Below are positions 12,301 to 21,878 of a DNA stretch of 64,000 nt, piece by piece; position 1 is the first letter of the stretch; each line of letters starts with the position of its first letter. Source of the DNA: Sebaldella termitidis ATCC 33386 (GTDB lineage: Bacteria; Fusobacteriota; Fusobacteriia; Fusobacteriales; Leptotrichiaceae); NCBI RefSeq assembly GCF_000024405.1, contig NC_013517.1, positions 3,131,989 through 3,195,988 on the forward strand, written 5' to 3'. The translations under genes were made by a program, and so were the position numbers. Under the pieces are notes generated by a model. That model saw only the letters and a list, made by a program, of their open reading frames with translations, made no database searches and was not told the origin of the DNA.

Positions 12301-12855
12301 TTAACCATGATTATGACCGCATCCGCACTCATGTCCTTCCTCTTTACAATCACAGTTTTCATGGTCATGATCGTGGTCATGACCGCATCCGCATCCTTCT
12401 CCATGCTCGTGCCCGTGTTCATGCTGGCTGCGTTCGTTCAAAAATCTATCTACATTTCCTTCAATATTTTTTAACAGGAAGTCTAACTTTTCATCACTAT
12501 ATTTAGCCAGTGAGCTGAACGAAGCTTCCATTAAGTATAATGCACTTAATAATTCCATAGATACTTCATTTCCGTTATTATCCGTAAAGATAACATTCCC
12601 ATAACCGCTTTCATTTGTTACTATTCTGAATGCTGCTATTTCAAATTCAGTTCCAAAGCCTTTTCCTTTTACAGGATAAGAAAGTTTTAGATTTTCTTCC
12701 TCATTCCCTTCATTTTTTTCCATTGACCATACTACGCTGAATAATATAAAAAACACAGCATAATTTATTTCTATTGTATTGTGGAAATAATGTAAAAATT
12801 CCGATTTTCCCATTAATTCACCGATTTTTTGTTGAAATTCTTTATTTTCAGTCAT
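12301..12855 (-). CDS. hypothetical protein with His/Cys-rich metal-binding tail
   Basis: A 184-residue protein in two parts. Residues ~1-143 form an unrecognised globular domain, with IAAFRIVTNESGYGNVIFTD near the middle. Residues ~144-184 are a low-complexity tail made of His, Cys, Asp, Glu and Gly (HEHGHEHGEGCGCGHDHDHD is typical). Such tails in HypB, SlyD or cation-diffusion proteins bind nickel, zinc or copper, so metal storage or delivery is plausible, but the body belongs to no family I can name. No signal peptide. AAGGAG precedes the ATG. Followed 20 bases later by a GNAT acetyltransferase gene. Confidence 0.75.
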   Translation of the reverse strand: MTENKEFQQKIGELMGKSEFLHYFHNTIEINYAVFFILFSVVWSMEKNEGNEEENLKLSYPVKGKGFGTEFEIAAFRIVTNESGYGNVIFTDNNGNEVSMELLSALYLMEASFSSLAKYSDEKLDFLLKNIEGNVDRFLNERSQHEHGHEHGEGCGCGHDHDHDHENCDCKEEGHECGCGHNHG

Positions 12856-13038
12856 ACTTTTCTCCTTCTATGATTTTTTTTATTTATGTACCATCTGATT
12901 TTTTTTAGTATTTTTATATTTCATTATGATATTATACTATGAATTTACGAAAAAATAAAATTTATTTTATTTATGTTAACTAAATCACTTATATAATACC
13001 TTTCCTACACTTTTGGAATTGTTATAAAATAATCTTGT

Positions 13039-13543
13039 TTATTGCGACTTTACTCTCCTGCGAATCTCTTCCGCTGCTTCTTTGGTCGTTTTACTGGATA
13101 CATCTATTTTATATGTATCCATATTCTTATATAATTCCAGTCTGGAGATACTTTCATTTATCTGTCCCGTTTCTCTCTTTCCTGTTTTTATATCTCAGGC
13201 TATTCTCCTTGCCAGTTCAGTTTCATTACATAATAGAGCAAATTTATATAATTCAAAATCTAAATCTCTTATCTCATTCAATATATTTTTAAAAATTTCT
13301 TCCTTATGCATTACCTAGCAAAAAATTATATATTGAAAATTTGAATTATTCAAAAAAGATCAGAGCAGAAATATAATATTTTTCAGAACCATTTCAATAT
13401 TTTCCTCGTTCACTGTAAACGGATTCATATTCCAGCACCTGTCACTGTCAAGATATACTGTTTTCAGTTTCTTTTAAAAGCAGATCACTCACTGTACTCT
13501 TCCCCACTTCCATTGTACCATTTATGATTATTAATTTTTTCAT
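13039..13543 (-). pseudogene. decayed P-loop nucleotide-kinase-like gene
   Basis: The minus strand starts with ATG at 13543 and gives MKKLIIINGTMEVGKSTVSD, an intact Walker A motif (GTMEVGKST). The frame is then broken near residue 32, resumes one frame over as VYLDSDRCWNMNPFTVNEEN, shifts again near IIFLL, and resumes as NNSNFQYIIFC-stop-VMHKEEIFKNILNEI, with another in-frame TGA after CNETELARRIA before the C-terminal part ending at 13039. At least two frameshifts and two stops are visible. In-order segments match the small AAA/nucleoside-kinase family with WNMNPF and FCWVMH motifs, so this is a dead copy. Confidence 0.85.
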
Positions 13544-13585
13544 CTTTTTATTCCCATTCTTTTGAATAAAACTAAAACTGCTGTA

Positions 13586-13621
13586 TTTAAAAAGCTGCAT
13601 CAAAAATACTTTGATACAGCC
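13586..13621 (-). terminator. terminator of the isomerase-PTS operon
   Basis: Minus-strand hairpin GCTGTATCAAA/TTTGATGCAGC (one mismatch) followed by TTTTTAAA, 11 bases after the GntR stop at 13632. Confidence 0.8.
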
Positions 13622-13631
13622 GTATTCATAT

Positions 13632-14390
13632 CTATACTTCCCGTTTCAGACTTATATTATACACAAATCTGTCAGCTCTGTAATACCCTATATTATATTC
13701 TATTTTCTGCCCGAACTTGTCATAAACAAGTCTTTTTCTGCATAATACCGGAATTTTATCATTAATATCAAGTATCTCCTTCAGTTCCTCCGTAGGCATC
13801 ATTGCAGTTACTTCTTCATCAGACACTACTGTAAAAATCCCGTAATTCTTTTCAAGATAATCATAAAGCTTTGTAAAGCTACCGTTTATAAAATCCTCAT
13901 CTTTATCCAGATTTATTCCAGGATTAAAATAACTCTGAAAGTATATATCTATGCTGTCGTTTATACCGCTTTCCCTGTATAGTACAGGACCGTTATATTC
14001 TTTATTCCTGTCAAGACCAAAAATGTCCTTTATCTCATCAGGAAAATCTTCCATTACTATCTTTTTATTTATATGTTTTAATTCAGACCCTTGGGAAAAC
14101 ATTTCATCTGTAAAACTATGCCATGAGTTCAAAGTCGTTTTTACTTTCTTTCTGTCAAGATTAACCTTTGTCCCTCTGCCTTTTTCACGTATAATAAGTC
14201 CGCGTAAAACAAGGCTGTCCATAGCCTTTCTTACTGTATGTCTGCTTACATTCAGCCTTTTCATCAGCTCAAGTTCGTTCGGCAGGTAAAAACCCTTACT
14301 GTAAGGTTCCTCATTTATAAGCTCAAGCAATATATTCTCTACTTGTTTATAAAGCTTTTCATCAGAATTTTTATCAACTTCTTTTCTCAT
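13632..14390 (-). CDS. GntR-family (UTRA) regulator of the isomerase-PTS operon
   Basis: A 252-residue transcription factor. Residues ~10-80 are a GntR winged helix (LPNELELMKRLNVSRHTVRKAM, then RGLIIREKGRGTKV), and ~95-245 a UTRA domain that probably binds a phosphorylated sugar. It is the last gene of the operon that starts at 20550, 25 bases after the cupin isomerase gene, so it would regulate its own operon. A GntR-type inverted repeat at 20583-20612, just downstream of the operon promoter, is the obvious target. GGGG lies nine bases before the ATG. Confidence 0.9.
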   Translation of the reverse strand: MRKEVDKNSDEKLYKQVENILLELINEEPYSKGFYLPNELELMKRLNVSRHTVRKAMDSLVLRGLIIREKGRGTKVNLDRKKVKTTLNSWHSFTDEMFSQGSELKHINKKIVMEDFPDEIKDIFGLDRNKEYNGPVLYRESGINDSIDIYFQSYFNPGINLDKDEDFINGSFTKLYDYLEKNYGIFTVVSDEEVTAMMPTEELKEILDINDKIPVLCRKRLVYDKFGQKIEYNIGYYRADRFVYNISLKREV

Positions 14391-14415
14391 AAGTGCATTC
14401 CCCCTATAAAGTTAG

Positions 14416-15192
14416 TTAAGGAATGAAATTTTTCCATTCTTTTAGTTTTAGTACCGGATCTGCTACAAACATGAATTTTTCCCTGTCTTTCAAATACTGC
14501 TCATAAATGGGTATACCTTTTTCTATGCTGAATTCATTGTAAAGACGAGGTTTTTTTATTTCCAGTTCCTGATTCTTATATAATTCATTTTTTATCCAGT
14601 TTATTTTATTATTGTAGTCCAATATCGGAAAAAATGCAAGTCCCTTATGCTCCCTGACTTTATCATAGTCAAATCCGTAATCTCTTACACACCATGCACC
14701 AAATACCATATTTTCTTCCGGATCTGCATTTACTGTATAGTGAGCCCAAAACGGCGGAACTATCACCACATCTCCTTCTGATGCTTCCACTGCAAAGCAC
14801 CTTCCCGGGCTGTCCTCTGCGGTTTCCTGCATATAGATAACTGCCTTCCCCTGCCATATTTCATAAACTTCCGGAGTTGACATCCCGCACGATGCTGATA
14901 TGCTGTGTATATGCCCCTGACTTCTTACCGGTTCTTCCCCCAGTCTTCCCTTGGAATATATTACAGCGCCGTATAAAAGATTTCTTTTTATAAGATCTGC
15001 TTTATCAGCTTCATTCCCTACATCCATAGCTATGGAATAGACTATTTCAGGACCGTCTGTATCAGGGTTTTTCAGACTTTTTCTTATGGAATCAATATCT
15101 CTGTTTTCTACCTCCGGTCCGAAAACACCCGGCTCATAAATAAATCCAAGCGGATTTTCTTTGATTTTTATATTAAATCCCGGCCAAATCAT
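14416..15192 (-). CDS. cupin-type glucose-6-phosphate isomerase-like protein (first copy)
   Basis: A 258-residue protein of the metal-dependent cupin phosphoglucose isomerase family, best known from archaea. The metal-site pattern is present: SQGHIHS (His-x-His), PEVYEIWQGKAVIYM (Glu), and PPFWAHYTVN (His). Such enzymes interconvert aldose and ketose phosphates. In this operon a second cupin isomerase-like gene (19972) and a mannose-6-phosphate-isomerase-like gene (18193) also occur, so its substrate may not be glucose-6-phosphate but the product of the co-encoded PTS. GGAGG precedes the ATG. It follows the EIID gene by 84 bases. Confidence 0.85.
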   Translation of the reverse strand: MIWPGFNIKIKENPLGFIYEPGVFGPEVENRDIDSIRKSLKNPDTDGPEIVYSIAMDVGNEADKADLIKRNLLYGAVIYSKGRLGEEPVRSQGHIHSISASCGMSTPEVYEIWQGKAVIYMQETAEDSPGRCFAVEASEGDVVIVPPFWAHYTVNADPEENMVFGAWCVRDYGFDYDKVREHKGLAFFPILDYNNKINWIKNELYKNQELEIKKPRLYNEFSIEKGIPIYEQYLKDREKFMFVADPVLKLKEWKNFIP

Positions 15193-15276
15193 ATTTCCTC
15201 CCGATATTTTTTATAAATAAATATTTTATTCTCTATAATTTATACCTTATTTTATTATTTTTTTCCATTCACACTG

Positions 15277-16089
15277 TTAAAATATTCCTAATAAAACTCC
15301 GACTATTGCTATTATCAGCAATACAAGCATTACTTTTACCGCGCTTAATTTTTTCTTTGTCATCAGATAATAAGTAAATAAAACTATTAATAATGGTATC
15401 AGCTTAGGAAAAATTCCATCCAGAATACTTTGCACGTTTATATCCACACTGCCGTTTTTATATCCAAGTTTTGTAACTACGTTCATATAACTTGCAGCTA
15501 TACCGCCTGTTACGAATACTCCCAGTATAGCAAATGCCTCTTTCATTTTTTCCGCTCTTTCATCTATTAAAAGGTTCACTGCATCGGTTCCTAATTTATA
15601 CCCTTTCATAAATAAGAAATATGAGCCTGTTATTATCAGCAGATTATATACTACTATGTAGAAAACCGGACCCAGAATATTTCCCCCTTGTGCCAGCCCC
15701 ATTCCAATACTCAGCAGTATAGGAATCAGCATTCCCGGAATCATAGAATCCCCTATTCCGGCTACAGGTCCCATCATTCCGACCTTTATACCATTTATTA
15801 CCTCTTCGTCTATTGCTTCTCCGTTTGCTCTTTTTTCCTCAAGTCCCACCACAATACCGTTGACTATTGCCCCCAGCTGCGGCTCGGTATTATAAAACGT
15901 TGATTGTCTTGCCAGTGCTTCCTTTACTTCTTTTTCATCACCGCCGTAAAGCTCTTCTATAACAGGAAGCATAGAATGGCAGAACCCGAAAGATTCCAGT
16001 CTTTCATAACTCATCGAGGATAAATTAAACATCATCCAGTCTCTCCAGCTTTTTACAAGCGTTTTTTTACTTAATTTTTTTTCTGTCAT
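15277..16089 (-). CDS. PTS EIID, mannose/fructose/sorbose family
   Basis: Membrane subunit found only in mannose-family PTS transporters, working with EIIC as the sugar channel. The 270 residues begin with a cytoplasmic segment (KTLVKSWRDWMMFNLSSMSYERL), carry the conserved GMMGPVAGIGDSMIPGMLIPI loop (about residues 127-147), and end in hydrophobic spans. Its start overlaps the EIIC stop (TAATG), so the two are translationally coupled. Confidence 0.95.
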   Translation of the reverse strand: MTEKKLSKKTLVKSWRDWMMFNLSSMSYERLESFGFCHSMLPVIEELYGGDEKEVKEALARQSTFYNTEPQLGAIVNGIVVGLEEKRANGEAIDEEVINGIKVGMMGPVAGIGDSMIPGMLIPILLSIGMGLAQGGNILGPVFYIVVYNLLIITGSYFLFMKGYKLGTDAVNLLIDERAEKMKEAFAILGVFVTGGIAASYMNVVTKLGYKNGSVDINVQSILDGIFPKLIPLLIVLFTYYLMTKKKLSAVKVMLVLLIIAIVGVLLGIF

Positions 16090-16892
16090 TAGAATTCATC
16101 CTCCTCATCGTCATTTTGTGTTCCGTTATTATTTCCTCCCTGTACAGCTGACGGTCTATAGTTGAAATGTATCAATGCGAGCAATACTCCTATCATTGCC
16201 AATGCTATCATATTCAGATTCAGGAATATGATTCCTATGAATCCTACCAAGAAATAAACCAGCAGATCGTTTCTCTTTACTATCTGCTTTAGAAGAATTG
16301 CTATTCCCACTGCCGGAAGCATTCCGCCGAGTACAGTCATCATTGTTATTACTTTATCCGGAATATGATCCAGTATTGTCTGTATATACTGCCCGCCAAG
16401 ATAAACAGCTATAAACGACGGTATAAATCTCATAAGAAAAGTCGTGATCTGAGGATATAATCCGTTTGCCAGCCTTACTCCCCTTATGTCCCCGGCCTGC
16501 ACCGCTTTATCTGCCTTATTATTCCAGTATGAATTTAGTACCATCATAAAATTAAATATTACTGTTCCTAATATTCCTATTGTTGCAGCAAGGGTCACAG
16601 CTACCTGCGGATCCTTTCCGGACATAATTCCAAGGGCTATTGCCGGATAAGCCACAAAATTCAGATCAGAAGGCATTGTTCCGCCCGGAGTTACGAGTGC
16701 TATATATACAGCCTGCACTGCCACTCCTACTATTATTCCCGTTTTTACATCTCCCAGAATCATTCCTACGATTAATCCTGATACCAAAGGTCTTGATAAT
16801 GTATACCATCCTCCTGTAAGACCAAATGCCCAAGGTACGCTCAGCGCCCCCAGATAACAAAATATTCCGATTAAAACTGCCTGTATAAACAT
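16089..16892 (-). CDS. PTS EIIC, mannose/fructose/sorbose family
   Basis: The 267-residue channel subunit. It starts MFIQAVLIGIFCYLGALSVP and carries the family's GLIVGMILGDVKTGIIVG and VTPGGTMPSDLNFVAYPAIA segments. I prefer the ATG at 16892 because GGAGGG precedes it and the family begins there; an in-frame ATG at 16943 would overlap the EIIB gene and add 17 residues. The C-terminal tail is acidic and Asn/Gly-rich (NNNGTQNDDEEDEF). The substrate cannot be named from sequence. Confidence 0.92.
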   Translation of the reverse strand: MFIQAVLIGIFCYLGALSVPWAFGLTGGWYTLSRPLVSGLIVGMILGDVKTGIIVGVAVQAVYIALVTPGGTMPSDLNFVAYPAIALGIMSGKDPQVAVTLAATIGILGTVIFNFMMVLNSYWNNKADKAVQAGDIRGVRLANGLYPQITTFLMRFIPSFIAVYLGGQYIQTILDHIPDKVITMMTVLGGMLPAVGIAILLKQIVKRNDLLVYFLVGFIGIIFLNLNMIALAMIGVLLALIHFNYRPSAVQGGNNNGTQNDDEEDEF

Positions 16893-16924
16893 ATTCTTAT
16901 CATTCCCTCCATAAAAATATTTTT

Positions 16925-17410
16925 CTATTTCACTTCTTCCCAATAATATGCTTTTTTATCAGGTATTAATTTAAACTCTACCTTATATCTTTGCGCGAGA
17001 TAATCAAATGCTTCCTCTTCTTCCTTAGTTACTGCCGCATTGGGTCCTATTGTTCTGGCTCCGTCTTTTAGATGCATAGGACCTACATTAATCTTATTAT
17101 TATTATCATTTCTCAGATCTGCACCGCCTTCTGTAAGTTTTTGAAAAACTACCGGTGTTTTTGCAATAATAAAATACTTTTTGTTGCTTTCTATAATTTT
17201 AGGGAGTTTTTCCAAAGCTGTTTTTATATCAAAAATCCATACTTTTACTCCGCTTGGTGCTGCTCCTTTGAATACATTGCTCAAAACAGGGTCTTGAGCT
17301 ATCTTATCATCCACAGCTATTATCCCGTCACAGGGAAATTCTTTTGACCATGCTGTAACTATCTGTCCGTGTATTACTCTGTCATCCACTCTTACAAATG
17401 ATATTGCCAT
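16925..17410 (-). CDS. PTS EIIB, mannose/fructose/sorbose family
   Basis: The 161-residue cytoplasmic phosphocarrier that passes phosphate from EIIA to the sugar. The active histidine is His14 in DDRVIHGQIVTAW. The family's VGPMHLKDGARTIGPN-like segment is near residues 110-126. GGAGG precedes the ATG. It sits between the EIIA gene (207 bases upstream, across a hairpin at 17519-17550) and the EIIC gene. Confidence 0.95.
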   Translation of the reverse strand: MAISFVRVDDRVIHGQIVTAWSKEFPCDGIIAVDDKIAQDPVLSNVFKGAAPSGVKVWIFDIKTALEKLPKIIESNKKYFIIAKTPVVFQKLTEGGADLRNDNNNKINVGPMHLKDGARTIGPNAAVTKEEEEAFDYLAQRYKVEFKLIPDKKAYYWEEVK

Positions 17411-17518
17411 TTTTCCTCCTAAGTTGTGTAAAATATATTAAAAAAATTTGTGTATTTCATTCTGAAAATGCCTGTATCTGTACCTTTCTCTGTTTGACTG
17501 TCATCTAAGACTTTTCAA

Positions 17519-17550
17519 TAAGATGAAGTACCGATATTTTCTTCGTCTTA
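17519..17550 (-). other. intergenic hairpin between the EIIA and EIIB genes
   Basis: Arms TAAGATGAAG (17519-17528) and CTTCGTCTTA (17541-17550) pair with one mismatch. No T-tract follows on the minus strand, so mRNA processing or stabilisation is more likely than termination. Confidence 0.5.
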
Positions 17551-17617
17551 CATTGACTATTCAATACTGATTCTGCTTATATCTCCAATAATTATATTAA
17601 TTATAAAAAACATATAA

Positions 17618-18046
17618 CTAAAATTCATCATCTTCTTCCAAAACTGCTCCTGCTTTTTTTATGCTTTCTCTAGCAGTATTCATTATATTTTCTGCTGCAC
17701 CGGCAGCATTTAGTCCCGACTCGGAGCTTTCCAGCGCTTCCAGCAGCATGGGAAAATTCACGCCGCTTATTACTTCTGTTTCTGTCTTAAACTCAGGATC
17801 ATAAAAATAAGTACAGGCTGTATTATAAGGAGTTCCTCCTTCCAGATCAGTAAGAACCACAAGTCCGGAAATATCTCGGAACCCATTTACCAGCTCATGA
17901 AATTCTTTTTTAAAAGTATCGGCATCAGAATCTCTGCGGAGTGATATAATTTTTATATTCTCAGGCAGATCTCCTGCTACCATCGAATATGTGTCCCTTA
18001 ATCCATAAACAAGATCTCCGTGACTTGCCAGTATTATTCCCAGCAT
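17618..18046 (-). CDS. PTS EIIA, mannose/fructose family
   Basis: The 142-residue soluble phosphocarrier that receives phosphate from HPr. His9 in ILASHGDLVYGL is the phosphorylation site, and the LTDLEGGTPYNTA loop and SGVNFPMLLEAL strand (about residues 84-115) are family hallmarks. AAGGAG precedes the ATG. It lies between the isomerase-like gene at 18193 and the EIIB gene, and is flanked on both sides by intergenic hairpins, unlike the tightly packed genes around it. Confidence 0.93.
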   Translation of the reverse strand: MLGIILASHGDLVYGLRDTYSMVAGDLPENIKIISLRRDSDADTFKKEFHELVNGFRDISGLVVLTDLEGGTPYNTACTYFYDPEFKTETEVISGVNFPMLLEALESSESGLNAAGAAENIMNTARESIKKAGAVLEEDDEF

Positions 18047-18089
18047 TTTTCTCCTTTCCGACAGCCCGGCATTTCTGTATTTCTTTGCG

Positions 18090-18151
18090 GGTGCTATATC
18101 TCATTCATCATTAGCCCGGTAATGCTGAATATTTTAATGAGATATAACACC
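18090..18151 (-). other. long intergenic hairpin upstream of the EIIA gene
   Basis: A 16-base inverted repeat (18090-18105 with 18136-18151, one mismatch, core TATATCTCATT/AATGAGATATA) encloses a smaller CATTA/TAATG hairpin. There is no following T-tract. It may be an RNA-processing or stability element inside the operon. Confidence 0.6.
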
Positions 18152-18192
18152 AGACTGTCTTTTATCCATTAATTTTTTATTGTTTAGATTTT

Positions 18193-19956
18193 TTATACTC
18201 TGACAAAGGCTTTAATTGTAGCTATTTCTTTCCCTGCCGAATTTCCATAAGGTCTTATTGTATATTCTCCCACATTTGCAGGTATTATAAATGTTTCGGC
18301 ATAATGTACAATATATGGTTCAAATTTATTTTCGGGAGATTCTATTATCGCTTCTTCACCCTCTACAAGATTCAGCATATTTACCAAACCATACGTATTA
18401 TGTAATACTTTTTTACTAAACCAGTGTCTTCTTGTTTCTATGAATTCTCTTTCATGAAGCCCTGTTCTTTCCTCTCGGAAGCCGTCTCCTTCGTCTATTT
18501 TTTCTATTCTGTTTATAAGATTTTCTTCTACCCATTCAGTGTTTCTGTTATATTGTATATTTTCCTTTCCGTGCTCTATATGTATTGGTCTCGGAAGCCC
18601 GTCAAGTCCGACTCTTCCCCAGTCCCACAGTTTAAATGTAAATATGTACGGTGTTGCGCTTATTTCAAGAATCATGGCATTTTTACCTGAGCAGTGTATT
18701 GTTCCTGCCGGTATCAGAAAGTGGTCATGTTTTTTTGCAGGAAATTTGTTTATATACTTTTCATCCGGAAAAGCTCCCTCTCCTCTTTGTGCCTTTCTGA
18801 ATTCTTCTATCAGTTCATCGGGATTCACTCCGGTTTTAGTACCGAGATATACACTTCCGTCATCTCCGCTGTCCAGCATATAATAGCTTTCATCCTGTGT
18901 ATAATGCATTCCGAATTTTGACTGTATATATTCAGTAAGCGGGTGAACCTGAAGACTGAGATTTCCTCCGCCCATGGTATCCAAAAAATCAAATCTTATA
19001 GGGAATTCCGTTCCGAATCTGGCATGTACCTTATCCCCTAATAATTCTACAGGCTTATAAAATACAAGATCTATTGAAGGTATTTCTACTACTATATCCC
19101 CGTATTTTAATTTCAGTGAATTTTCCTCAGGTACACCGTCAAAACACCATGCATACTGTTCCTGATTTTTATCCAGTCCGCAGACTTCCTTCATCCACTG
19201 ACCGCCCCAAACACCCGGATCAAAGAATGGCACAAGCCTGAACGGCTGGTTTACGGCCTGTGTGAGAGCGGCTCTGAATGCATCGCCCTTTACCATTTTA
19301 GGATCATTTTTTATATTTGTATCAAGAAGATAATCCAGTTTTTGAAATAATCCTTTTTTATGTCTGTCCAGTACTCTCCATTCTATAAAAAATGCTCTTT
19401 TATATTTTTTCAGCACATCTTCATCAAAATTCCCTGCTCCCCAGTTATCCAGTTCTTTTCTTCGGAATCTCTGCTGTATCTCCCATCTTGCCATATCCGC
19501 ATATACGAGAATATCTCCTTCGATCAGACCGGCACCAATACCGTATACCACTACCAATCCTTCCGAAATTTCATTTATTTCTTTTTTCAGTTCTTCTATT
19601 TTTTTCATATCAAAGAATTCTTCTATTGTTCTTACGCTCAATACTCCAAATACCCTGTCTTCTGTTATCTCTCTCTTTAATTCGTCAGAAAGATATTCTT
19701 CCGAAAGTTTATAATCTGCTATATTTATAAGCTTAACAGCTCCTGTTTTGCTGACAAGATTCTCATACACTTCCTTTTCATCTACTCCGTGATAATAATC
19801 CAATACCATAACTGTCTTTTTCTTATTTAAGCTGTCTTTTTTGCTCTTTAATTCCTCTAAAATATTTTCATATGACTGAAAAGCTTCCTTTTCCATGCCT
19901 TTCATTTCTATAACGGGATTTTTTTCATAATTTCTTTTTTGCTCTGGTAAATTCAT
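18193..19956 (-). CDS. class I mannose-6-phosphate isomerase-like protein with N-terminal extension
   Basis: A 587-residue protein. The C-terminal ~350 residues are a type I phosphomannose isomerase cupin, with zinc ligands in the right places: Gln and His in LSLQVHP, Glu in DESYYM, and His in IPAGTIHCSG. The first ~230 residues resemble a nucleoside-kinase-like alpha/beta domain (VVVYGIGAGLIEGDILVYADM) but lack a clear Walker A motif. Long versions like this exist in Gram-positive bacteria and are annotated as mannose-6-phosphate isomerases. Here it sits in a mannose-family PTS operon with two cupin isomerases, so mannose-6-phosphate or a related ketose/aldose phosphate is the likely substrate. 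Confidence 0.87.
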   Translation of the reverse strand: MNLPEQKRNYEKNPVIEMKGMEKEAFQSYENILEELKSKKDSLNKKKTVMVLDYYHGVDEKEVYENLVSKTGAVKLINIADYKLSEEYLSDELKREITEDRVFGVLSVRTIEEFFDMKKIEELKKEINEISEGLVVVYGIGAGLIEGDILVYADMARWEIQQRFRRKELDNWGAGNFDEDVLKKYKRAFFIEWRVLDRHKKGLFQKLDYLLDTNIKNDPKMVKGDAFRAALTQAVNQPFRLVPFFDPGVWGGQWMKEVCGLDKNQEQYAWCFDGVPEENSLKLKYGDIVVEIPSIDLVFYKPVELLGDKVHARFGTEFPIRFDFLDTMGGGNLSLQVHPLTEYIQSKFGMHYTQDESYYMLDSGDDGSVYLGTKTGVNPDELIEEFRKAQRGEGAFPDEKYINKFPAKKHDHFLIPAGTIHCSGKNAMILEISATPYIFTFKLWDWGRVGLDGLPRPIHIEHGKENIQYNRNTEWVEENLINRIEKIDEGDGFREERTGLHEREFIETRRHWFSKKVLHNTYGLVNMLNLVEGEEAIIESPENKFEPYIVHYAETFIIPANVGEYTIRPYGNSAGKEIATIKAFVRV

Positions 19957-19971
19957 TTAAATTCCTCCTAA

Positions 19972-20550
19972 TCAATTATCTGTCTGGTTATCAGTAATTT
20001 TACTAATTGAATATCCGTCATTACTTCTAAAAATTCTTACAGGAAATCCTTTTTCCTGTATTTCTCCATAATTATGTCCGGCATCTGACGGCCAGCACGC
20101 TCCTACCACTAGAGGCTCATCCGAAATATTTACAAGTCTGTGTGCTGTATTTTCCGGTATATAATGCAGAGAATTTTTTTCCACTGTTATCACACTGCAC
20201 TCTCCGTCAATATTTTTTAGTATTAAAAGTCCTCTTCCTTTTATTCCCCAATAATATTCTGTATGAGACATTTTTTCATGATAATGTCCTTTTGTCATAT
20301 TAAACTCTCCGTTTACCTCTCCGGGGAATATTTTCGTAACTCCGAAATTTAATTCGCCTGCTTTTCCTTCATTTATATAACCTGTTACTTCATACATTAT
20401 TTTTTCGTCATCTATGCTTTCATCCTCAGGCTTTAGAAAAACAGATTTCAGATCTTTAAATTTTTTCTTGGAAATAATCAGATTTTGTTTATCAGTATCC
20501 GAAAATTCCCCATTTTCAAAATTAAAATAAAGATTTGATTTTATTTCCAT
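19972..20550 (-). CDS. cupin-type glucose-6-phosphate isomerase-like protein (second copy)
   Basis: A 192-residue single-cupin protein of the archaeal-type phosphoglucose isomerase family. Metal-site residues are seen in TKGHYHEKMSHTEYYWGIKG (His-x-His then Glu) and IPENTAHRLVN (His). The C-terminal WPSDAGHNYGEIQEKGFPVR is characteristic of the family. It is first in the operon, 15 bases before the mannose-6-phosphate-isomerase-like gene, behind a consensus promoter and a GntR-type operator. Length matches the archaeal enzymes better than the 258-residue paralogue at 14416. Confidence 0.88.
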   Translation of the reverse strand: MEIKSNLYFNFENGEFSDTDKQNLIISKKKFKDLKSVFLKPEDESIDDEKIMYEVTGYINEGKAGELNFGVTKIFPGEVNGEFNMTKGHYHEKMSHTEYYWGIKGRGLLILKNIDGECSVITVEKNSLHYIPENTAHRLVNISDEPLVVGACWPSDAGHNYGEIQEKGFPVRIFRSNDGYSISKITDNQTDN

Positions 20551-20582
20551 ATATCCTCTCCTTCGCTGACATTATCTTTTTT

Positions 20583-20612
20583 AAATGTACGTATGTATAT
20601 GTCCGTACATTT
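20583..20612. promoter_or_regulatory. inverted-repeat operator of the isomerase-PTS operon
   Basis: Perfect nine-base arms AAATGTACG (20583-20591) and CGTACATTT (20604-20612) lie just downstream of the -10 box, a roadblock position. The probable binder is the GntR protein encoded at 13632-14390. Confidence 0.7.
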
Positions 20613-20623
20613 ATTTTGATTTT

Positions 20624-20651
20624 ATTATACCTCTTTTTTTTATTTTGTCAA
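20624..20651 (-). promoter_or_regulatory. promoter of the isomerase-PTS operon
   Basis: Minus-strand TTGACA (20646-20651), a 16-base spacer and TATAAT (20624-20629): a full consensus sigma-70-type promoter in front of the gene at 20550. Confidence 0.85.
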
Positions 20652-20873
20652 TATTTTTTTGAAGATAATTTTTTTAAAGCTGTATTTTAAAAAATCATAC
20701 AATCAGTATCACAGGCTGTTTTCTTTTAATCTGATATTTTCCTGTATGCTGTACTACCGCTTCTCAATCCACCATATCAAAAATTTTTCGCAGATATAAA
20801 ACTGTATACAATAATGTTTTATAATATTAAAAATATATGCTAAAATATGGTATCAAAAGAAACGGAGGTTCAA

Positions 20874-21878
20874 ATGAAAAAGTTTATATTAGCATGCTTA
20901 TTTCTGGTTTCTGCTTTTAGTTTTTCACTTGAGAAATCAGGGATAAAAGAATACGACAGCCTTGATATTTCCAAAGGAAAAATCATTGCTTATTATAATA
21001 CTAAAAAACAGATTGTCGAAGAGCCGGCTGCGATGTTTTACAGAAAAGATTACGGAAAAAAGGGAAATTATCATCTGGTGGCAGACTTTTACGCAGATAC
21101 AGATACTCCTGAAAAAATTTTTATGCTGCGTGATCTCGATGATGAGGACAGCATAAACGGAAAACTTGCATATTATAACAAGAATGAGACTATTTCATAT
21201 GTAGCAGATATGAAAAATGGAAGAATTGACGGTCAGAAAACAACTTTTGAAAAAGGAAAAGTAGCGGCTGTTGTTAATTTTTCCAATAATCTTGCCAACG
21301 GAAAAGGAACATTATACTATAAAGAAAAAAAATATGCAGAAGCAAACTATGCTTACGGATTTGCAGACGGTGATTTTACACTGTTTTATCCGGACGGATC
21401 AAAAGTATTGACTCTTACTTATAAAGACAATGATGTAATAAAAAGCCAGAATTTTAACTACAAACTACAGAAGTCAGGAATAGATGAATTTGATTCCCTT
21501 GATTTTTCAAAAGGTGAAATAGTTTACTATTACAATTCTGATGGTAATATCATATCAAAAGATTCAAAAGATGCTGTTTATTTTAGAAAACTTATGTCAA
21601 AAGAAGGAAACGAATACTTTGTAGTAGACTTTTTTCTTGAAACGGGAAATGTTCAGGGGATCGGGAAAGGATATAATCTGAAAGATTTTCAGGGTCATAC
21701 TCTAAACGGACCTGTTGTCACATATTATGATAATGGAATTCTAAAATCAAAAGCTTCTTATAAAAATAAAAAACTTGACGGTGAGTCAACTTTATATGAT
21801 TATTTTGGAAACATTGTAAGAACAGACATATATAAAGACGGAGTCATTCAAAGTGCCCGTTTCTTTGAAACAAATTAA
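20874..21878 (+). CDS. secreted MORN/YwqK-like repeat protein
   Basis: A 334-residue protein with a signal peptide (MKKFILACLFLVSAFSFS) and short beta-hairpin repeats of the MORN/YwqK kind (LNGPVVTYYDNGILKSKASY and GRIDGQKTTFEKGKVAAV). The protein is internally duplicated: KSGIKEYDSLDISKGKIIAYY near residue 20 recurs as KSGIDEFDSLDFSKGEIVYYY near residue 200, so it arose by tandem doubling. Some relatives are called YwqK antitoxins, but no toxin is adjacent and the export signal argues for an envelope role. GGAGG precedes the ATG at 20874; the earlier in-frame start at 20847 has none. Confidence 0.8.
   Translation: MKKFILACLFLVSAFSFSLEKSGIKEYDSLDISKGKIIAYYNTKKQIVEEPAAMFYRKDYGKKGNYHLVADFYADTDTPEKIFMLRDLDDEDSINGKLAYYNKNETISYVADMKNGRIDGQKTTFEKGKVAAVVNFSNNLANGKGTLYYKEKKYAEANYAYGFADGDFTLFYPDGSKVLTLTYKDNDVIKSQNFNYKLQKSGIDEFDSLDFSKGEIVYYYNSDGNIISKDSKDAVYFRKLMSKEGNEYFVVDFFLETGNVQGIGKGYNLKDFQGHTLNGPVVTYYDNGILKSKASYKNKKLDGESTLYDYFGNIVRTDIYKDGVIQSARFFETN

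Follow-up and report, generated by a model that had tools for sequence, protein, structure and literature searches.

A PTS operon of Sebaldella termitidis as a probable version of a scattered hexose-utilization cassette with three isomerase-like proteins

The operon and its proposed role

An eight-gene operon in the termite-gut anaerobe Sebaldella termitidis is probably the form, coupled to the phosphotransferase system (PTS), of a scattered cassette dedicated to hexose utilization. The operon lies in a stretch of 64,000 nucleotides (hereafter, the window; C1:3131989-3195988 in an assembly of 4,486,650 bases and 3 contigs); the genome description gives the same total of 4,486,650 bases and a chromosome of 4,418,842 bases (PMC3035275). 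Window positions 13593-20651 form one predicted transcription unit on the minus strand that comprises a promoter, a palindrome, eight genes and a terminator. The genes (13632-20550) encode, in this order, a cupin of the phosphoglucose isomerase (PGI) family (cupA), a long mannose-6-phosphate-isomerase-like protein (the long isomerase), the PTS enzyme II components EIIA, EIIB, EIIC and EIID, a second, divergent cupin (cupB) and a GntR/UTRA regulator:

20624-20651, minus strand: predicted sigma-70 promoter (TTGACA, 16 nt, TATAAT), 12/12 consensus matches
20583-20612, no strand assigned: predicted operator, a 30-bp palindrome with a perfect 9-bp inverted repeat and a 12-bp spacer, single occurrence in the genome
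19972-20550, minus strand: cupA, cupin PGI family, 192 amino acids (PF06560, 99 bits; archaeal PGI, E 8e-36)
18193-19956, minus strand: long class I mannose-6-phosphate-isomerase-like protein, 587 amino acids, with an extra N-terminal domain at about 1-230 (1qwr, Z 28.0; 20-row alignment)
17618-18046, minus strand: PTS EIIA, mannose family (PF03610, 76.9 bits)
16925-17410, minus strand: PTS EIIB, mannose/sorbose family (PF03830, 138.1 bits)
16089-16892, minus strand: PTS EIIC, mannose/sorbose family (PF03609, 234 bits)
15277-16089, minus strand: PTS EIID, mannose family (PF03613, 313.7 bits)
14416-15192, minus strand: cupB, divergent cupin PGI-family protein, 258 amino acids (PF06560, 84.1 bits; predicted structure)
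13632-14390, minus strand: GntR/UTRA transcriptional regulator, HutC-type (PF00392, 58.7 bits, and PF07702, 66.1 bits, both above cut-off)
13593-13621, minus strand: terminator-like stem of 13 pairs with a T tail, 3' of the regulator gene

Seven of the eight genes have a family match above the Pfam cut-off, including the four families of a complete Man/Sor PTS. The family matches and the gene order confirm an earlier, sequence-only reading of this locus, which placed two cupins of unequal length, a long isomerase, a full PTS and a GntR regulator in one operon. For EIIC, the sequence favours the ATG at 16892 over the TTG at 16943 as the start. Two further genomes of the genus (G001 and G003) arrange the genes from cupA to cupB identically; in a third (G002), the contigs that carry these genes are broken.

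In the proposed mechanism, the mannose-family EII complex would import a hexose and deliver it as the 6-phosphate. Aldose-6-phosphates would then be substrates of the three putative metal-dependent isomerases, and the ketose-6-phosphate formed, most probably fructose-6-phosphate, would enter glycolysis. Uptake and phosphorylation, presumably performed by a sugar porter and a ROK kinase in the relatives from Bacteroidota, would be a single PTS step in Sebaldella. The GntR/UTRA protein would repress its own operon at the palindrome past the -10 box until released by a sugar phosphate. The genes, their order and conservation, the palindrome and the replacement of porter and kinase by a PTS are read from the sequence; from these, we infer the activities, the regulation and the sugar. 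We favour this explanation because of the gene counts at cupB loci, the co-occurrence of cupB and the long isomerase in a Bacteroidota sample (P 2.1e-5) and a PTS-containing locus in Bacillota; the invariant metal-ligand positions of the cupins and the lack of classical PGI in 20 of the 21 Bacillota genomes with the sister family of cupB; and the alpha-mannosidase genes near long isomerases together with a fusion of the long isomerase to a ROK kinase.

Recurrence of the isomerase trio in three phyla

The scan of genome contigs for cupB yielded 15 loci, one of which (L046, from the same genus, apparently G002) was set aside. Plasmid records contributed two more loci and the even samples of two phyla another five, for a total of 21 cupB loci outside the genus. 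The long isomerase is present at 20 of these and cupA at 14, with all three genes found together at 13; a ROK kinase is encoded at 16 loci and a major facilitator superfamily (MFS) sugar porter at 13. Where cupA cross-matched weakly at a cupB position, as in L063 and L067, cupA was not scored as present, and the missing cupA of L048 is uninformative, given that this locus begins within the porter gene. The only locus without a long isomerase, L061, lacks it over 20.8 kb; another record of the same strain, L034, has one.

Most of the cassette loci belong to Bacteroidota and carry an MFS sugar porter and/or a ROK kinase instead of the PTS seen in Sebaldella. In the usual arrangement, cupA is followed by the porter, the ROK kinase, the long isomerase and cupB, and a GntR-type regulator and a GH2 (glycoside hydrolase family 2) enzyme often accompany these genes. 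The even Bacteroidota sample has four non-centre genomes with cupB, all of which fall within the 28 of 394 that encode a long isomerase (P 2.1e-5, uncorrected for relatedness). In the Bacillota genome G470, the long isomerase and cupB occur together with a GntR/UTRA gene and a mannose-family PTS whose EIIC and EIID are 68% and 63% identical, respectively. Judging from gene content, the isomerase trio is a conserved cassette across Fusobacteriota, Bacteroidota and Bacillota and looks like a genuine metabolic unit; the comparative genomics that was suggested along with the sequence-only reading shows the set recurring well beyond Sebaldella. Given the porter and kinase loci of Bacteroidota and the PTS locus of G470, the Sebaldella operon is best read as the PTS version of this cassette.

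The Peribacillus locus (L047:2307-15525) has short and long mannose-isomerase-like genes next to each other as well as cupB. It also includes genes of the mannitol dehydrogenase and alcohol dehydrogenase types together with PTS genes from two other families, which hints at a hexitol link.

Two cupins of separate lineages

The two cupins are the only PF06560 members in the whole genome, and both score far above the family cut-off of 20.7 bits (99 for cupA and 84.1 for cupB), with 22% identity between them. In the phylogenetic tree, which carries a long-branch warning, cupA groups with the archaeal cupin PGI (support 100/100), consistent with its sequence match to the latter (E 8e-36), and cupB falls on the opposite side with a bacterial sister family (100/100). 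Because cupA groups with archaeal PGI and cupB with a separate bacterial branch, the tree indicates that the two are separate lineages rather than recent copies.

The metal-ligand positions (three His and one Glu) are invariant in both cupins, in 14 of 14 aligned rows for cupA and in all 14 for cupB. A study of Pyrococcus furiosus PGI assigns proton transfer to Tyr152 and His158 (PMC6627849). At the first of these positions, cupA has Trp in 14/14 rows, and at the second, it has His in 13/14. In cupB, the corresponding residues are a near-invariant Cys168 and an invariant Phe174; since neither proton-transfer residue is present, we class cupB as a relative of PGI and not as a PGI. The predicted structure of cupB (pLDDT 93.9) has P. 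furiosus PGI as its top match in the PDB.

Among 398 sampled Bacillota genomes, 21 contain the sister family, a cupB-like cupin, and 20 of these 21 lack the classical PGI (PF00342). At six of the 11 loci that were fetched (L068-L078) from the 21 known, the adjacent gene is annotated; four of the six are of glycolysis type, namely PFK, GAPDH and two pyruvate-kinase C domain proteins. The absence of classical PGI from 20 of the 21 genomes, along with these neighbours, suggests PGI activity for the sister family and, for cupB, descent from a hexose-6-phosphate isomerase lineage with retention for a non-housekeeping use. The sister family may be the sole PGI of those Bacillota.

Classical PGI is encoded in each of the 17 cassette genomes tested (S. 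termitidis and 16/16 others), so housekeeping needs do not explain the cupins; two more ManA-like genes, both short, are present in S. termitidis. Plain redundancy, whereby three ordinary isomerases provide extra dosage for growth on glucose and mannose, is improbable. The characterised PDB members of all three families are hexose-6-phosphate isomerases, as this explanation would have it; nevertheless, the set stays together in three phyla despite a classical PGI elsewhere in the genome, and the two cupins occupy opposite sides of the family tree. The earlier proposal that the three isomerases are unlikely to be redundant is thus upheld by the recurrence of the set in three phyla, the separate lineages of the cupins and the classical PGI in 17/17 genomes.

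A distant relative of cupB is found on a Salmonella plasmid (L079:5177-8912), between ptsG (glucose-type EIIBC) and hxlB-hxlA. The latter pair encodes 6-phospho-3-hexuloisomerase and 3-hexulose-6-phosphate synthase, an arrangement that would lead from the PTS to ribulose phosphate.

The long isomerase

Neither Pfam nor NCBIfam gives a match for the 587-residue protein itself, and it shows no hit to Pfam PMI_typeI_cat at E 1; nine of its 20 relatives match this family weakly, with a lowest E of 0.0058. Residues 236-461 match the mannose-6-phosphate isomerase of Bacillus subtilis (1qwr) at E 1.5e-9, and the predicted model superimposes residues 236-585 on 1qwr with Z 28.0 and a root-mean-square deviation of 3.0 over 304 residues, which identifies a phosphomannose isomerase fold. 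In the 20-row alignment, the aligned motifs keep an invariant His, Glu and His, which presumably form the metal site. The position aligned to the Arg of the TYRVYDYDR motif of 1qwr, which we take to be catalytic, is Lys442; Lys is present in 19 of the 20 rows and Arg in L038 only.

The N-terminal portion of about 230 residues is an extra conserved domain with no sequence match in the PDB at E 10, and the structure-based rows (VIA-align) of the long isomerase span residues 229-587 only. The description of the protein as class I mannose-6-phosphate-isomerase-like holds for the C-terminal portion of about 350 residues. The motif YADMARWEIQ and the order of helices and strands in the model gave rise to the idea of a uridine-kinase-like domain (a P-loop-less kinase). 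This idea is unsupported: comparison with Escherichia coli Udk using hhalign gave a probability of 0.3 and rank 226 among 630 proteins.

The conserved N-terminal domain without an assigned fold would be compatible with one of the three proteins being a sugar-phosphate sensor or regulator rather than an enzyme. We consider such a role highly improbable given that the metal-ligand positions are invariant in both cupins and that the operon already encodes a GntR/UTRA regulator. The suggestion in the sequence-only reading that one of the proteins may sense a sugar phosphate therefore finds no support, with the metal-ligand positions retained in the long isomerase as well and a GntR/UTRA regulator and a unique palindrome present in the operon; overall, that interpretation is partly supported, through the non-redundancy of the isomerases.

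In Flammeovirga (L037:7963-10623), a ROK kinase and the long isomerase are fused in one protein of 886 amino acids.

The sugar and alternative routes

Among the eight long-isomerase loci from plasmid records, five have a gene of an alpha-mannosidase family (GH92 or GH38) nearby: L034, L037 and L039 have GH92; L034 also has an annotated GH38, and in L036 and L040 GH38 is assigned through a BLAST cluster. The glycosidases near cupB belong to GH2, GH31, GH43 and GH66, with one member of the GH38 cluster (L051). Two ways to identify the sugar were rejected: the PTS and kinase sequences give NCBIfam matches below the cut-off to several sugars, and the glycosidases (GH2, GH31, GH43, GH66, GH38 and GH92) are mixed. 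Mannose or a mannose/glucose mixture is most likely the sugar, as the plainest reading, and the neighbouring glycosidases appear to fit sugars of the mannose and glucose types at least as well as an uncommon hexose.

In line with the uncommon ketose or aldose phosphate raised in the sequence-only reading, the cassette could instead serve a less common hexose (for example, of the allose, altrose, talose or gulose type), with the isomerases catalysing successive or parallel steps at specificities beyond those of glucose- and mannose-6-phosphate isomerases. The ordinary activities look covered by the classical PGI in 17/17 cassette genomes and the two short ManA-like genes of S. termitidis, the active sites of cupB and the long isomerase deviate from the references, and both proteins are strongly conserved. 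This alternative is nonetheless unlikely, if a serious one: alpha-mannosidase families, GH31 and GH66 are represented among the glycosidases nearby, and no sugar-phosphate 3- or 4-epimerase is seen in the annotated part of the cassette genes and their neighbours. An uncommon hexose might be processed without an epimerase if one isomerase produced a 2-ketose-6-phosphate, cupB shifted the carbonyl from the 2- to the 3-ketose and another enzyme shifted it back, so that the stereochemistry at C2 and C3 would be reset by carbonyl walking. The 2- to 3-ketose shift is of the kind made by 6-phospho-3-hexuloisomerase. Such a route would fit the non-standard active sites and the distant cupB relative beside hxlB/hxlA in L079; we nevertheless hold it to be decidedly improbable.

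Several observations weigh against the preferred explanation, a dedicated hexose cassette channelling aldose-6-phosphates into glycolysis. cupA is absent at seven of the 21 loci, one of which is ended by the contig. cupB lacks both Tyr152 and His158, cupA lacks Tyr152, and Lys replaces the conserved Arg in 19/20 rows of the long isomerase, so that the isomerase activity may differ. The glycosidases beside the trio are of mixed types, the NCBIfam matches of the EII components and ROK kinases are all below cut-off and indicate several sugars rather than a single one, and the classical PGI in 17/17 genomes speaks against a plain glucose-6-phosphate role.

Regulatory elements and neighbouring features

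The predicted promoter (20651-20624) is the top-scoring of 32 promoter-like sites, a number that is not above the shuffle level (mean 28.3). The segment delineated in the sequence-only reading ends at 20651, the first base of the -35 hexamer. The palindrome is located directly past the -10 box, and its TGTACG/CGTACA arms recur at loci in each of the four genomes of the genus, two of which have altered spacers. This palindrome is the likely site where the GntR protein would bind and repress its own operon. Terminator-like sites are no more numerous than expected (2 found vs 3.2).

The gap between the long isomerase and EIIA genes (18047-18192, minus strand) contains a strongly folding hairpin (z -5.07). 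It was dropped as a candidate conserved control element: G001 has a different stem, and the gap in G003 is only 15 nt. Folding of the EIIA-EIIB gap is not unusual (z -0.69), and an Rfam search of 12500-21500 returned no family matches.

The genome (G000, C1) encodes 13 mannose-family EIID genes. Downstream of the operon, a protein of 184 amino acids (12301-12855, minus strand) is rich in His and Cys at its C-terminus and matches neither Pfam nor NCBIfam families. Located 3' of the terminator, a short frame (about 13400-13543, minus strand) opens with the P-loop kinase-like motif NGTMEVGKST and stops early; by eye, kinase-like sequence resumes in a different frame, and this is probably a broken gene.

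Implications

All parts of the operon are of known kinds. For the three conserved isomerases, the PTS that stands in for porter and kinase, the separate cupB branch and the extra domain of the long isomerase, our searches of open-access PMC listed no paper with a description, judged by titles and the first part of abstracts. Three soluble enzymes in one operon make a ready target for assays. If the sister family of cupB is the only PGI in many Bacillota, a gap in the annotation of glycolysis could be closed; if the sugar is uncommon, a new catabolic route would be defined.

Comparison with known systems

The operon resembles mannose-family PTS operons, for which we take manXYZ, lev and aga as examples, in the separate genes for EIIA, EIIB, EIIC and EIID and in the GntR/UTRA regulator. 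It differs from these in the presence of three isomerases of two families and in that all four EII components fall below every curated NCBIfam cut-off. With the cassettes of Bacteroidota (L049, L054, L058 and others; cupA, ROK kinase, long isomerase and cupB), it shares the same three adjoining isomerase families, whereas those loci have an MFS sugar porter and/or a ROK kinase, plus glycosidases, in contrast to the PTS of Sebaldella.

Compared with the cupin-type PGI of P. furiosus and Thermococcus litoralis, both cupins are alike in the family match above cut-off and the metal-ligand positions; cupA differs by Trp in place of Tyr152, and cupB by Cys and Phe in place of Tyr152 and His158, by its greater length and by its separate branch. 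Finally, the long isomerase is similar to the class I phosphomannose isomerases (B. subtilis 1qwr and Salmonella typhimurium ManA) in the fold of residues from about 236 to 587 and the invariant His, Glu and His of the metal-site motifs, and differs from them in the N-terminal domain of about 230 residues and in Lys442 at the position of the Arg.

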